From contig CP075366.1 of NCBI GenBank assembly GCA_019454145.1, positions 2,025,564-2,089,563 on the forward strand: a stretch of 64,000 bases of DNA, given 5' to 3'. Below, piece after piece: positions 23,806 through 38,595 of the stretch. The DNA comes from Fimbriimonadaceae bacterium. Its GTDB lineage: Bacteria; Armatimonadota; Fimbriimonadia; Fimbriimonadales; Fimbriimonadaceae. The notes under the pieces were generated by a model. It made no database searches, was not told the origin of the DNA, and was given only the letters and a program-made list of their open reading frames with translations. The translations under genes and the position numbers were made by a program. Each line of letters starts with the position of its first letter. Position 1 is the stretch's first letter.

Positions 23806-23857
23806 TCTTCCTTGGGTCGGAGTGCTGATATCAGCAGCTTCGAGGAGAACCGGCAGA

Positions 23858-25060
23858 ATGCCTTATTTCGCATACACAGCAATGGATTCGACTGGCCGAC
23901 AGGTCAAGGCGGTCATGGAGGCAGAACATGAAGCTCTTGTTCTGGGGCGCCTTCGTGAGCAGCAATTACAAGTCGTAGATATCAAAGAGCTCAAGAAGAA
24001 GAAAGCCGTAACGGTTGGTAAGCACAAGCTCAAGATGAAATCTTTGGTTGTGTTTAGCCGGCAGTTCGCCACGATGATCGATGCAGGTATCCCTATTCTC
24101 CGCTGCCTCGAAATCCTCACATCTCAATGCAAAGACCAGGCTTTGAAGCCAGCACTTGAAGCCATCACATCAGATGTTAAAGGTGGTTTGAGCTTGAACG
24201 AAGCATTGGCGAAACACCCAACGATTTTCAGCAAGCTGTACGTCAACATGATCCGAGCAGCCGAAATCGGTGGGATTTTGGATACGATCCTTGACCGCCT
24301 TTCCGGATTCTTGGAATATGAAGCCGAAGTCAAAGGCAAGATCAAGAGTGCAATGATGTATCCGATCTTGGTTTTGGGATTCTCCCAGATCATGCTGTTT
24401 GTACTGTTCAGTTTTGTTTTGCCTAAATTCAAAGAGATTTTCGATGGCATGGATGTTGAACTTCCGGCCGTCACCGCCGCTCTGTTTGCAATGGGCGACT
24501 TCATGCAGAAGTCTTGGTGGATGATCCTGGTGGCACTCGGCGCAATGCTGTTTGGTCTCAAGAGCTATTCCAAGACTCCAAAAGGTCGCTATCAAATGGA
24601 CTGGCTAAAGCTCAAATTCCCGATCATGGGTGAGTTGAGCCTCAAGATGAGCGTCGCGCGGTTCTGCCGAACCTTGGGAACCTTGATCAACTCAGGTGTT
24701 CCGATGATGCGCAGTTTGGAAATCGTGAGCGAAACCTTGGGCAACCAAGTTCTTTGCCAGGCGGTTGATCAAACTCGACTCAGCATCCGCGAAGGAAACA
24801 AGCTCAGTATGCCGTTGGCTAACTCAGGCCTCTTCCCGGCGATGGTTACTCAAATGATCGACATCGGTGAAGAATCCGGTCGTTTGAGCGATATGCTCGT
24901 CAAAGTTGGAGATTTTTACGATAGTGAAGTCGAACAAACCGTTAAAGGTTTGACCTCAATGATTGAGCCTCTGCTCATTATCTTCCTCGGTGTGATTGTT
25001 GGTTTCATCGCCATCTCGGTTATGACCCCAATCTTCAAACTGGTCAACAGCGTTAAGTAA
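23858..25060 (+). CDS. pilC: Type IV pilus inner-membrane platform protein PilC (GspF family)
   Basis: 400 residues. It starts MPYFAYTAMDSTGRQV, has two T2SSF domains (about 65-190 and 265-390) with FSRQFATMIDAGIPILRCLEI and its repeat ARFCRTLGTLINSGVPMMRSLE, and three membrane helices near 165-190, 215-240 and 370-395. It is the platform for pilus assembly. I use the ATG at 23858 because GAGGAG lies 10 bases upstream; a GTG at 23822 has no such site. No pilB/pilT is adjacent. Confidence 0.95.
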   Translation: MPYFAYTAMDSTGRQVKAVMEAEHEALVLGRLREQQLQVVDIKELKKKKAVTVGKHKLKMKSLVVFSRQFATMIDAGIPILRCLEILTSQCKDQALKPALEAITSDVKGGLSLNEALAKHPTIFSKLYVNMIRAAEIGGILDTILDRLSGFLEYEAEVKGKIKSAMMYPILVLGFSQIMLFVLFSFVLPKFKEIFDGMDVELPAVTAALFAMGDFMQKSWWMILVALGAMLFGLKSYSKTPKGRYQMDWLKLKFPIMGELSLKMSVARFCRTLGTLINSGVPMMRSLEIVSETLGNQVLCQAVDQTRLSIREGNKLSMPLANSGLFPAMVTQMIDIGEESGRLSDMLVKVGDFYDSEVEQTVKGLTSMIEPLLIIFLGVIVGFIAISVMTPIFKLVNSVK

Positions 25061-25064
25061 ACCT

Positions 25065-25080
25065 GGCGGCCGCGGCCGCC
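25065..25080. repeat. GC-only 16-bp palindrome after pilC
   Basis: GGCGGCCGCGGCCGCC is a perfect palindrome of only G and C, 5 bases after the pilC stop. It has no T run, so it is not a standard terminator. It may form a strong hairpin that protects the pilC mRNA end. Confidence 0.5.
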
Positions 25081-25155: not shown

Positions 25156-25196
25156 AACGGCTGAGGGTGAGAGAAAGGATTTCTCTCAAAACCGTT
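25156..25196 (+). promoter_or_regulatory. Leader hairpin before the sigma-GGDEF gene
   Basis: GAGAGAAA (25169-25176), loop GGA, TTTCTCTC (25180-25187), with outer arms AACGG and CCGTT. It lies directly upstream of the GGAG ribosome-binding site (25201-25204), so it could affect translation start. Confidence 0.4.
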
Positions 25197-25209
25197 CAAT
25201 GGAGTGAAA

Positions 25210-26484
25210 ATGTCGGAAGCATTAGCTAAAAATCAGGGTGACGCAGAAGCACTGGTACTACGGTATCTCGCGGATCCTCGTCCTGACTTAAAAGACCTGG
25301 TAATCGTTCATTACTCAGGCATGGTAGAGAGGATTGCTCGTCGGTACAGTGGAACTGAACCGCTTGATGATCTCACCCAAGTCGGGTTTATTGGGCTGCT
25401 GAATGCGCTCAGTAAGTTCGATGCAACGGTGGGCGTACAATTTAATACTTACGCAACGCACCTGATCGCAGGTGAAATCAAACACTATCTGCGAGATCGG
25501 GCGCAAACGATTCGCCACCCAGCCTGGCTGCAGGAACTGCGACACAAGGTGAACAAAGCGACTCAAGCTCTGCAAGGTGAACTTGCACGCGTTCCAACCA
25601 CCCGGGAAATTGCGGAACGATGCGGCATCAGCGAAACTGCGGTTGCCGAAGTTCAAGCAAGCCAAGAAACCGTTAAGATCGCATCTTTGGATACAACTCC
25701 TGGTGACGACGGCGAAGGCGGAGACAGAGATATTGACCGACTCGACGCAGCTCTTTCGAGCGTTGAGCAAGTCAGTGTAGAAGACCGTGTTCTGCTTGAA
25801 TCTGCAATGGAGCAACTCCGCGACCTTGAACGAGAAGTGCTTTGCTTATTCCACTTCGATGCGTTGAATCAAACCGAAATTGCCAACCGACTCGGAATTT
25901 CCTGCAATTATGTTTCGCACATTCTCCGACAGTCGCTCAGCAAACTTCGCAAGATTCTTTCGCAAGATGTTCGGGAAGAAATCGCTCTTCGAAGCGAAAG
26001 CCCCGAGGAACGATCGGTCATTGATTCAGAAACTGGCATCTACGATGAAGATTACTTCCGCGCTCGCTTGAGCGAAGAAGCTCATCGAGCCGTTTCGACT
26101 GAAGGCACTTGCAGCGTGATTCTTGTTGACGTGGAAGGCTTGAGCGGGCTTCGTGGATTCTATGGCGACGAAACAGTACGCGACTTTCTTGTGGACGTTT
26201 CTGCTTTCCTCAAGAACAGCGTTCGTGCGCTCGATATCGTTTGCCGCAACGGTTCAACCGGGTTCGGAGTGATTCTGCCTGGAACTGGCCCGAATGCAAA
26301 TATGGTCTGCGCTCGCCTGCAAGCTAAAGTTGATAAGTGGCTCGTCACCCGCATGTCGGGTTCCGGATCGGTTCGACTCAAGTTTGGCTACGCAACCACT
26401 CCCGACGAAGCTCGCGGTGGCGCGGACTTGATCAAGATCGCGATGAACCGCATGAACGAAGCGGGTCAAAGCGAAGCGGCATAG
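25210..26484 (+). CDS. Sigma-70 family sigma factor fused to a degenerate GGDEF domain
   Basis: 424 residues. Residues 1-255 form a SigB/SigF/FliA-type sigma factor: region 2 (PLDDLTQVGFIGLLNALSKFD; FNTYATHLIAGEIKHYLRDR), region 3 (VPTTREIAERCGISETAV) and region 4 (LNQTEIANRLGISCNYVSHILRQSL). Residues 270-420 align with a diguanylate cyclase domain: a D-x-E-T-G-IYDEDYF start, VILVDVEGLSGL, ALDIVCRNG, ILPGTG and FGYAT. The GGDEF signature reads G-S-T-G-F (348-352) after R346, so cyclase activity is not expected; a ligand-sensing role is inferred. GGAG lies 5 bases before the ATG at 25210. A terminator follows. Confidence 0.9.
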   Translation: MSEALAKNQGDAEALVLRYLADPRPDLKDLVIVHYSGMVERIARRYSGTEPLDDLTQVGFIGLLNALSKFDATVGVQFNTYATHLIAGEIKHYLRDRAQTIRHPAWLQELRHKVNKATQALQGELARVPTTREIAERCGISETAVAEVQASQETVKIASLDTTPGDDGEGGDRDIDRLDAALSSVEQVSVEDRVLLESAMEQLRDLEREVLCLFHFDALNQTEIANRLGISCNYVSHILRQSLSKLRKILSQDVREEIALRSESPEERSVIDSETGIYDEDYFRARLSEEAHRAVSTEGTCSVILVDVEGLSGLRGFYGDETVRDFLVDVSAFLKNSVRALDIVCRNGSTGFGVILPGTGPNANMVCARLQAKVDKWLVTRMSGSGSVRLKFGYATTPDEARGGADLIKIAMNRMNEAGQSEAA

Positions 26485-26508
26485 AATTCCGAAACCATTG
26501 AACAACTG

Positions 26509-26540
26509 GCCCGGGCACCGTGAGGTGTTCGGGCTTTTTT
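26509..26540 (+). terminator. Rho-independent terminator after the sigma-GGDEF gene
   Basis: GCCCGGGCACC, loop GTGA, GGTGTTCGGGC, then TTTTTT. The two central mismatched positions pair as G-U in RNA. It marks the end of the pilC/sigma region and the left edge of the accessory block. Confidence 0.9.
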
Positions 26541-30705: not shown

Positions 30706-30740
30706 CAAGCGTCTGTATTGTCTAGGTAGGATTGAGAAGG

Positions 30741-31718
30741 ATGAGCGAATTGAAGTTTATTGATTTGTTTTGCGGAATAGGTGGCTTCCATATCGCCATG
30801 GAGAACGCTAGCGAAAAAGCTGGCATAAGGTCAAGTTGCGTTTTTGCGAGCGATATTGATATAGCGTGCCAGGAGATGTATGAAGCCAACTTTGGACTAA
30901 AGCCTGTCGGCGATATTACGAAAATTGATGCTTTGGACATTCCTGATCACGATGTGTTATTCGCTGGCTTTCCGTGTCAGCCGTTCAGTATTATGGGTTC
31001 CCTTCGCGGATTCGAAGATACGCGAGGAACACTATTTTTCGACATCGCTCGAATTTTAAAGGAAAAAAGACCACGGGCATTTATTCTCGAAAATGTGAAA
31101 CAACTGGTAGGACATAGGCAAGGACAAACATTAGGTCGGATACTTGAATCACTCCGTGACCTCGACTACTATGTTACATATCGTGTATTGAATGCACTTG
31201 ACTTTGGATTGCCGCAAAAACGTGAACGTGTTTTAATTGTTGGCTTTGATAGACAATGTGACTTCATCTGGCCCCAGGGAGGATATCCCATGAAGCCGCT
31301 CAAGGAAATCTTGGAAACTGAAATTCCAGAAAAATATGTGGCATCGGAAAAAATTCAGAATGCGCGCAGTAAATGGCATTCAGTCGATGCCGAACCAACA
31401 ATCTGGCATGAAAATAAATCTGGGAACATAAGCAAATATCCTTATTCCTGCGCATTGAGGGCAGGTGCAAGCTACAACTACCTGCTTGTCGACGGATTGC
31501 GTAGGCTGACTGAGCGTGAGATGCTTCGACTCCAAGGATTTCCTGATTCGTACAAAATTATTAAAGGCTACTCTGATGTCAGACGACAAGCTGGAAACTC
31601 CATTGCCGTGCCGATGGTGGGCAGCGTGATCTCTCGGGTGCTCGATAGCTTGGAAATTAGCAAAACAAAGTACACCTACTCGCCTGGTCAGGTTGAATTC
31701 GTTTATGAGCGCAAATGA
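30741..31718 (+). CDS. DNA (cytosine-5) methyltransferase of a type II restriction-modification pair
   Basis: 325 residues from the ATG at 30741. Motif I FIDLFCGIGGF, motif IV GFPCQPFS (catalytic Cys79), motif VI ENV, motif VIII QKRERV, motif IX RRLTEREMLRLQGFP and motif X RRQAGNS. The target-recognition region is short (about 200-260). AT-rich codons differ from neighbours. A TTG at 30732 is an alternative start. Its stop overlaps the next gene by 4 bases. Confidence 0.93.
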   Translation: MSELKFIDLFCGIGGFHIAMENASEKAGIRSSCVFASDIDIACQEMYEANFGLKPVGDITKIDALDIPDHDVLFAGFPCQPFSIMGSLRGFEDTRGTLFFDIARILKEKRPRAFILENVKQLVGHRQGQTLGRILESLRDLDYYVTYRVLNALDFGLPQKRERVLIVGFDRQCDFIWPQGGYPMKPLKEILETEIPEKYVASEKIQNARSKWHSVDAEPTIWHENKSGNISKYPYSCALRAGASYNYLLVDGLRRLTEREMLRLQGFPDSYKIIKGYSDVRRQAGNSIAVPMVGSVISRVLDSLEISKTKYTYSPGQVEFVYERK

Positions 31719-32464
31719 GTAGAGAAACTCCAAGAATCAAGCGGGCAGATAAGTACCCTCCACCCTTCAAACTAAAGACCTTTAGTGCGAATACGATTAG
31801 GCGGATTGCCGAAGAGCTTCTCCTGACTCGAATTGTCCGAGAGAATGATGATTTCACGGGTACGGACTGGGAAAGGGCATTTGCTGCGGCCATTGGAGCA
31901 GAATGGAAACCATCAAATGTTGGATTGGACGACGTAGTTCTTGGAACTTGCTGTTGGGGAGCAAAGAGTGTTAAATCAACACGACCATTAACGCAATCAG
32001 CCGTGCGGCTTATATCCGGACGAAACAGCTTAGACTATTCATTTGAAGTGTCTAATGTGCGAGAATTGCCCCCAGAAGAAGTTGGCACGAAGGTCTTGGA
32101 CATATGGAATGAGCGTGTCAGTCAAGTACGAGCAAAGTATCGACATGCTAGGACTGCAGTATTAGTTAAAGGCCCCGGCCTGTTATCAGGTGTCGTTTTT
32201 GAATTTGAAACTGACCTCTTCGATCCAACTCAATACACCTGGCAGTGGAATAGTAATAAAAACTTGGTTGGGTTTGATCTTTCCAACTCCCATAAGTTCA
32301 CTTGGCAACCTCACGGATCACAATTTACAGTTGTAGAAACGATTCCTGCTACTCGGCATGGGTTTACAATTCGCGTTCCAGATGAGTTACCTAAATTGTC
32401 TCGTGAAGCCCTGTTATCGCAAATAGGCTACAAGCCCGAATGGATTGAAATTAAGAATTCATAA
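31715..32464 (+). CDS. Putative type II restriction endonuclease
   Basis: 249 residues, coupled to the methyltransferase by an ATGA overlap and with the same AT-rich codon use. I recognise no family with certainty. Glu53 (TDWERAF), Asp72-Asp73 and Lys84 (LDDVVLGTCCWGAKSVK) could form a divergent PD-(D/E)XK nuclease core. The assignment rests mainly on position next to a lone C5 methyltransferase. Confidence 0.68.
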   Translation: MSRETPRIKRADKYPPPFKLKTFSANTIRRIAEELLLTRIVRENDDFTGTDWERAFAAAIGAEWKPSNVGLDDVVLGTCCWGAKSVKSTRPLTQSAVRLISGRNSLDYSFEVSNVRELPPEEVGTKVLDIWNERVSQVRAKYRHARTAVLVKGPGLLSGVVFEFETDLFDPTQYTWQWNSNKNLVGFDLSNSHKFTWQPHGSQFTVVETIPATRHGFTIRVPDELPKLSREALLSQIGYKPEWIEIKNS

Positions 32465-37809: not shown

Positions 37810-38595
37810 TTAAGCGACGTGCGGAACTCCCTCATCTTTCAAGAAGTTTCGGAGTCTTCCCATCGCTTGGGTATGAAGCTGATAAACGCGGCTTTCGCTC
37901 ACGGTTAACACCTTGCCGATTTCTTTGAATGTCAAGCCTTCGAAGTAATAAAGCGCGATCACCAGTCGTTCGCGTTCTGGAAGCCGATCTACGCCCGCCG
38001 CCATCGCGCGGCGAAGTTCTTGGCCTTCAATCTGACCATCGGTGTCTGCATCCTCGTCAACGATCATTTCAACGAAGTGGATATTGTCGTCCCCTTCGGA
38101 ACCGCCGCCCCCAACAATGTCGTCGAGCGAATAAACGCTGGTGCGACCTACTCGAACGAGGAGGTCAGAAACTTCTTGTTCGGAATATCCGAGGTAATCG
38201 CTGAGCTCGCGGTGGCTAGGAGGACGACCATATTCTGTTTCCAGCTTTTGGTTCGCTTTGTCGAGTGCTTTGAGTTTTTCGCGGATTGACCGAGGAACCC
38301 AGTCTTCGTCTCGGAGCATTTCCAGAATTGCGCCGCGAACGAGGGCGATGGCATAAGTTTCAAACTTTACGTCCCGGGTTGGATCGTATTGGTCTACGGC
38401 TTTGATGAGGCCAATAACACCAGCACTCACAAGGTCATCTCGATCTAAACCGTTTGGAACGCTGGTGACCAGTCGGCCAGAAGTAATTTTTACAAGGTAG
38501 GAGTAATGATTGATGAGTTCAACTCGGGCATCCTGGCTTTTATAGACTTTGTATTCGATCCAGGTTCTTTGGAGGGTATCGGGTGACAGAGGCAT
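37810..38595 (-). CDS. fliA: FliA/WhiG-type sigma-28 factor
   Basis: 261 residues. Region 2 (INHYSYLVKITSGRL; LDRDDLVSAGVIGLIKAVDQYD; FETYAIALVRGAILEMLRDEDWVPRSIR), region 3 (GRPPSHRELSDYLGYS), the VYSLDDIVG linker and region 4 (LTFKEIGKVLTVSESRVYQLHTQAMGRLR). The DWVPRSIR segment is diagnostic of the FliA/WhiG/SigD branch. It probably reads the two GCCGACAA promoters in this window. Small genes flank it on both sides. Confidence 0.95.
   Translation of the reverse strand: MPLSPDTLQRTWIEYKVYKSQDARVELINHYSYLVKITSGRLVTSVPNGLDRDDLVSAGVIGLIKAVDQYDPTRDVKFETYAIALVRGAILEMLRDEDWVPRSIREKLKALDKANQKLETEYGRPPSHRELSDYLGYSEQEVSDLLVRVGRTSVYSLDDIVGGGGSEGDDNIHFVEMIVDEDADTDGQIEGQELRRAMAAGVDRLPERERLVIALYYFEGLTFKEIGKVLTVSESRVYQLHTQAMGRLRNFLKDEGVPHVA

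Follow-up and report, generated by a model that had tools for sequence, protein, structure and literature searches.

A single gene of this Fimbriimonadaceae bacterium encodes both an alternative sigma factor and a GGDEF domain, which raises the question of whether a sigma factor can act as its own receptor for c-di-GMP. The gene lies in a window of 64,000 nucleotides, the whole stretch of DNA that we analyzed, within a complete chromosome of 2.76 Mb, and the features discussed here are collected in Table 1. Pfam analysis of the 424-residue protein placed Sigma70_r2 at residues 33 to 98, Sigma70_r3 at residues 109 to 172, and Sigma70_r4 at residues 199 to 248, which bears out an initial annotation of one frame joining sigma regions 2 to 4 to a GGDEF domain. 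The ATG start of this frame (MSEALAK...) is common to its relatives. As argued below from conserved residues, the protein is probably an alternative sigma factor of the SigB/SigF/SigG kind that serves as its own c-di-GMP receptor through the I-site of a catalytically dead GGDEF domain.

Table 1. Positions of features in and around the sigma-GGDEF fusion gene, numbered within the window
Feature	Position	Strand	Basis or remark
pilC (type IV pilus inner-membrane protein, T2SSF)	23822..25060	+	PF00482, 209.5 bits
5' leader hairpin TGAGAGAAAGGATTTCTCTCA, GGA in loop, probable CsrA site	25168..25188	+	class conservation; CsrA gene in genome
Shine-Dalgarno GGAG, possible second GGA site	25201..25204	+	24 nt downstream of hairpin GGA; kept in most relatives
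sigma-GGDEF fusion gene	25210..26484	+	424 aa plus stop; orthologues in 184 genomes
SigB/F/G-type sigma part, regions 2, 3, 4 (aa 1-255)	25210..25974	+	Pfam, TIGR02980
degenerate GGDEF domain (aa 270-421)	26017..26472	+	PF00990, AlphaFold2, Foldseek
R293 = PleD R313, I-site residue from neighboring molecule	26086..26088	+	76/77, 68/68 orthologues
R339-A-L-D342 = RxxD of c-di-GMP I-site (PleD R359, D362)	26224..26235	+	77/77, 68/68 orthologues
lost catalytic A-site signature G-S-T-G-F (aa 348-352), replacing GG(D/E)EF	26251..26265	+	ortholog columns
R369 = PleD R390, third residue of primary I-site	26314..26316	+	73/77, 67/68 orthologues
intrinsic terminator after fusion gene	26508..26535	+	12-pair stem, then T run

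The sigma part contains regions 2, 3, and 4 and lacks region 1 in both Pfam and NCBIfam, a make-up that fits SigB, SigF, and SigG. Its nearest NCBIfam subfamily is SigBFG (TIGR02980), at 185 bits against a curated cut-off of 234, so that by sequence it appears to be a divergent relative of SigB/SigF/SigG and not a filed member, and its best solved relative is SigB of S. aureus (8x6g). The family signature GISCNYVSHILR is found in region 4.2, where the fusion has SCNYVSHILR and sigma-only relatives have QMHVSRLQ. The partner-switch anti-sigma regulation that is usual in the SigB/SigF/SigG family is not evident for the fusion: no anti-sigma gene was found among its neighbors in the window, nor was a separate RsiG-like gene with ExxxSxxRxxxQxxxD repeats found among the adjacent genes in the window and the class loci. 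A second alternative sigma factor, sigma-only and with a very long branch in the sigma tree, is encoded about 12 kb downstream (37831 to 38535, minus strand), and several members of the genus have a sigma-only paralogue about 10 kb downstream of the fusion.

Both of the checks that had been proposed for the C-terminal domain, a PF00990 profile search and a structural comparison, returned GGDEF. The profile match at residues 270 to 421 spans profile positions 2 to 157 of 161 and scores 62.9 bits (Pfam cut-off, 23.8). AlphaFold2 modeled the isolated domain with a pLDDT of 89.4 and a pTM of 0.84, and the top Foldseek matches of this model are T. maritima GGDEF and complexes of PleD with c-di-GMP. 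PleD numbering was taken from an alignment; in this numbering, the A-site comprises D327, N335, D344, and GGEEF 368 to 372 and the I-site comprises R359, D362, and R390 plus R313 from a neighboring molecule (PMC7288161, PMC12943098). Conservation was read from two orthologue sets, one of 77 fusion proteins and a second collection of 68 sequences whose species are partly shared with the first. The signature GSTGF, already noted in the initial annotation, was confirmed at residues 348 to 352, and in both sets the columns of the GG(D/E)EF motif are highly variable except for the first G and the F. The metal and guanine positions D327, N335, D344, and E370, as well as E371, are likewise scrambled across the orthologues examined in both sets. 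The sequence D-V-E-G-L had also been read as the region of the first metal aspartate; an Asp is indeed kept at the position of D327 in the window copy (D307), but this column is near random in relatives. The domain therefore has the fold of a diguanylate cyclase and lacks the GG(D/E)EF motif and the metal and guanine residues of an active one, and the loss of the A-site across the 77 and 68 orthologues leads us to reject an active cyclase.

The I-site residues are nearly invariant in both sets (Table 1), and in the 68-sequence set the six positions of the domain with the highest conservation are E290, R293, R339, D342, R286, and R369. As a control from the same genome, we compared its nine other GGDEF domains: these keep the acidic residues of the A-site, two have RxxD together with R390, and none has the I-site quartet. 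Because the A-site is scrambled, the quartet is nearly invariant, and the paralogue control shows the opposite, the studied domain appears to have given up catalysis while keeping its ligand site, whereas most of its paralogues show the converse. Active cyclases also commonly have RxxD, and keeping it would by itself prove little; the case lies in its invariance within an otherwise eroding domain. The pairing of a lost A-site with a complete I-site (RxxD, R390, and R313) is that of a PopA-like receptor, and the putative assignment as a c-di-GMP receptor was made by such residue criteria. These data support the earlier proposal that a dead GGDEF domain would give a nucleotide direct control of the sigma factor, and they narrow the candidate nucleotide to c-di-GMP, since the quartet is kept while the A-site is lost, the quartet is absent from the paralogues, and the fusion is lost together with cyclases. 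GTP, which the initial annotation had allowed, is an unlikely ligand, as the guanine- and metal-binding residues of the A-site are not conserved.

We found the same fusion, whose presence in related genomes had been suggested as a further check, in 184 genomes, a number that rules out a sequencing error or a chance fusion. Within the class, 98 of 113 genomes have it at the search threshold, one of the 98 being a partial copy cut by the end of a contig. In the search of the phylum, where matches were sorted by strength and span, the 291 genomes divide into the 184 with the fusion, 97 without it, and 10 that are ambiguous; families f39 to f43 and f45 gave sigma-length matches or none. In a maximum-likelihood tree built from the sigma part, the fusions form one clade (100/99) from which the sigma-only relatives are excluded, and this single clade spanning the phylum rules out a recent local fusion. 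Thus, the fusion is ancient and phylum-wide in Armatimonadota. A contig scan returned at least 154 relatives, and the best 80 of the 154 are titled as Armatimonadota groups or as an unnamed "bacterium"; the distribution outside Armatimonadota was judged from these 80.

Two rows within the fusion clade have no complete domain. One (G113) is truncated by a contig end, and the other (L134, from genome G174 of family f17) is a sigma orthologue that has a basic tail at its end and no GGDEF domain, a natural domain amputation. On the sequence of this one f17 member, the absence looks like a real loss, in a lineage that has kept the sigma factor, has lost the domain, and whose genomes have one or two GGDEFs. 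Within the genus, one copy alone (that of G006) is broken, by a frameshift that is probably a sequencing error, because the adjacent ribD reading frame is also split in that assembly. Between the window and its nearest relative (G004), dN/dS is about 0.006 in both the sigma and the GGDEF parts, showing that both domains are under purifying selection.

The distribution of the fusion follows that of c-di-GMP synthesis. GGDEF matches were counted in the same 291 genomes, with counts near 12 being lower bounds, and every one of the 184 fusion genomes has at least two matches. In the fusion-bearing families, the fusion is present in 178 of the 196 genomes with four or more GGDEF matches and in none of the 25 genomes with one match or none, a comparison that is fair because a fusion genome could have landed in the lower bin. 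The Fisher P value for this lower class is 8e-18; it ignores phylogeny, and the ten families that the 25 genomes span are a better measure of independence. In ten families, therefore, the loss of the fusion went along with that of diguanylate cyclases. Two GGDEF matches, including at least one strong cyclase match, were counted in each of the two smallest genomes (1.5 Mb), and both keep the fusion. c-di-GMP synthesis accompanies the fusion in the same genome, as would be expected of a receptor. The exceptions are 18 of the 196 genomes with at least four GGDEFs, such as G063 with 11, that have no fusion; a subclade of genus g20 has no fusion, yet 4 to 11 GGDEF domains, and some fragmented assemblies are also without it. 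Because some multi-GGDEF genomes do without it, the fusion is dispensable. Seven near-complete genomes (G064, G065, G072, G140, G141, G142, and G236) have zero GGDEF matches, and three of these (G064, G065, and G072) are also without PilZ matches; c-di-GMP signaling has been lost repeatedly within the phylum.

The conserved arginines and aspartate might instead serve protein contact, with the GGDEF domain acting as a docking module that binds no c-di-GMP and whose partner would be a cyclase, a phosphodiesterase, some unknown regulator, or the protein's own sigma part, onto which it would fold back. Such a role has a parallel in Streptomyces, where RmdB uses an inactive GGDEF domain to bind sigma-WhiG in trans (PMC13232838), and co-loss with cyclases fits cyclase docking too. 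In addition, E290 and R286, which are not canonical for the ligand, equal the I-site in conservation. We nevertheless consider docking unlikely, as it does not predict the joint conservation of four c-di-GMP ligand residues that lie far apart in sequence while most other columns vary. We give little credence to binding of another nucleotide (GTP, ppGpp, or cGAMP) in a remodeled pocket. The A-site region is remodeled and not deleted, and the PDB contains structures of PleD with both c-di-GMP and (p)ppGpp (9g85, 9g86), but the columns of the A-site are close to random, which leaves no conserved alternative pocket in that region, and the site that is conserved is the c-di-GMP I-site.

The GGDEF domain evolves faster than the sigma part (dN of 0.26 versus 0.11, window versus G005) and one lineage has lost it (L134), as would be expected of a functionless relic of an accidental fusion; this seems highly improbable for a domain with invariant residues that purifying selection has maintained and that numerous families and classes retain. 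We attach almost no probability to the idea that some members still make c-di-GMP, as a cyclase tethered to RNA polymerase, for which the Asp of the window copy at the D327 position could be cited, since the positions of GG(D/E)EF, N335, D344, and E370/E371 are lost across the orthologues examined.

If the fusion is a c-di-GMP receptor, as we favor, an intercalated c-di-GMP dimer would be held by R339, D342, and R369 of one molecule and R293 of another. Binding would change how the molecules oligomerize or where the domain sits relative to sigma region 4, and this change would decide whether the sigma factor joins RNA polymerase, a model that would require no anti-sigma factor. The full-length AlphaFold model of the fusion has a pTM of 0.43 and predicts no firm docking between the sigma and GGDEF parts; RmdB and sigma-WhiG provide a precedent, in trans, for contact between a GGDEF domain and a sigma factor. 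On the direction of the switch, we lean very slightly, in what is close to a coin toss, toward high c-di-GMP turning the sigma factor off by cross-linking GGDEF domains, by analogy with product-inhibited PleD; loss of the whole gene along with c-di-GMP synthesis fits activation or inhibition alike.

The gene was initially described as following pilC, and this linkage is conserved: in 36 of the 38 loci from the class and 62 of the 104 from the phylum, the next gene upstream, in the same orientation, is pilC; some of the phylum loci are too short to tell. In the window, 149 bp separate the two genes. From this gene neighborhood alone, the targets of the sigma factor are probably genes for surface life, including those for type IV pili. 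A perfect 16-bp palindrome, GGCGGCCGCGGCCGCC, lies just past the pilC stop codon (25065 to 25080) and is not conserved in relatives. Farther downstream (30732 to 32464), a gene for a C5-cytosine DNA methyltransferase (PF00145) is followed, with a 4-bp overlap, by a 249-codon reading frame without a Pfam match, possibly forming a restriction-modification pair.

The leader of the fusion gene contains a hairpin that ends about 20 to 21 nt before the ATG, and its loop, AAGGAT, matches the ANGGAN hexaloop consensus of CsrA/RsmE sites (PMC7652899). A GGA-loop hairpin at positions -50 to -22 is found in 28 of 53 class leaders, compared to 0.4 expected from shuffles, and the hairpin covaries in the class, most stem positions showing each of the four Watson-Crick pairs. 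Among control genes, 5 of 356 scored; four of these were fusion genes that the filter had failed to remove, and the fifth was a pilC, leaving about 1 in 352. Outside the class, the hairpin was seen in 2 of 30 leaders, so this layer is largely specific to Fimbriimonadia. The window leader folded alone has a z of -1.6, and the case for the leader therefore rests on conservation and not on folding energy. CsrA is encoded in all 10 genomes tested, including that of the window, and in Fimbriimonadia the fusion mRNA is probably under CsrA control. A search of the leader against Rfam gave no match, and a scan for -35 and -10 elements near the gene start found nothing; the upstream alignment of relatives recovered the hairpin and no clear sigma-type promoter. 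On the sequence evidence as a whole, we think it reasonably likely that the locus encodes a phylum-wide one-component switch, in which c-di-GMP at the I-site sets promoter choice without an anti-sigma factor, with CsrA gating through the GGA hairpin added in Fimbriimonadia.

The predicted receptor resembles several known systems in part. PopA of Caulobacter has, like the fusion, a dead A-site and an intact I-site RxxD and acts as a receptor (PMC12564702); unlike the fusion, it is a response-regulator paralogue of PleD, functions in the targeted proteolysis of CtrA, and has no sigma factor fused to it. In Streptomyces, c-di-GMP governs a sigma factor of the FliA/WhiG/SigB group through RsiG and sigma-WhiG (PMC7288161, PMC13232838), as we predict for the fusion. 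In that system, c-di-GMP is bound chiefly by an anti-sigma factor that is a separate coiled-coil protein with ExxxSxxRxxxQxxxD motifs, whereas the fusion has a GGDEF domain inside the sigma polypeptide. ECF sigma factors with ligand-sensing or regulatory C-terminal extensions offer a parallel both in these extensions and in having no separate anti-sigma factor, as is predicted for the fusion (PMC8999054, which makes no mention of GGDEF or c-di-GMP), and OrbS is reported to be a further sigma factor with a C-terminal extension (PMC9023288). These extension-bearing ECF proteins are two-domain sigma factors with other extra domains, in contrast to the SigB/SigF/SigG type with regions 2 to 4. By analogy, the fusion may be viewed as a PopA-like degenerate receptor combined with the sensory-extension logic of ECF sigma factors, responding by a different route to the signal that also acts on RsiG-sigma-WhiG.

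To our knowledge, no earlier sigma factor carries its own c-di-GMP receptor domain, and the fusion would be the first; the known routes from c-di-GMP to transcription run via transcription factors, riboswitches, or, in the case of sigma factors, an anti-sigma partner. Our literature search of open-access papers found no report of a sigma-GGDEF fusion, and in reviews of c-di-GMP receptors (PMC7288161, PMC12564702, PMC10333796), we found no sigma factor with its own receptor domain. With the I-site retained, the idea can be tested directly with point mutants, and the leader hairpin makes a census of CsrA sites in Fimbriimonadia genomes worthwhile. If the proposal is correct, direct sensing by a sigma factor would be a new way of connecting c-di-GMP and gene choice, a poorly studied phylum would gain a defined c-di-GMP output, and a global lifestyle signal would be tied to promoter choice within one protein.
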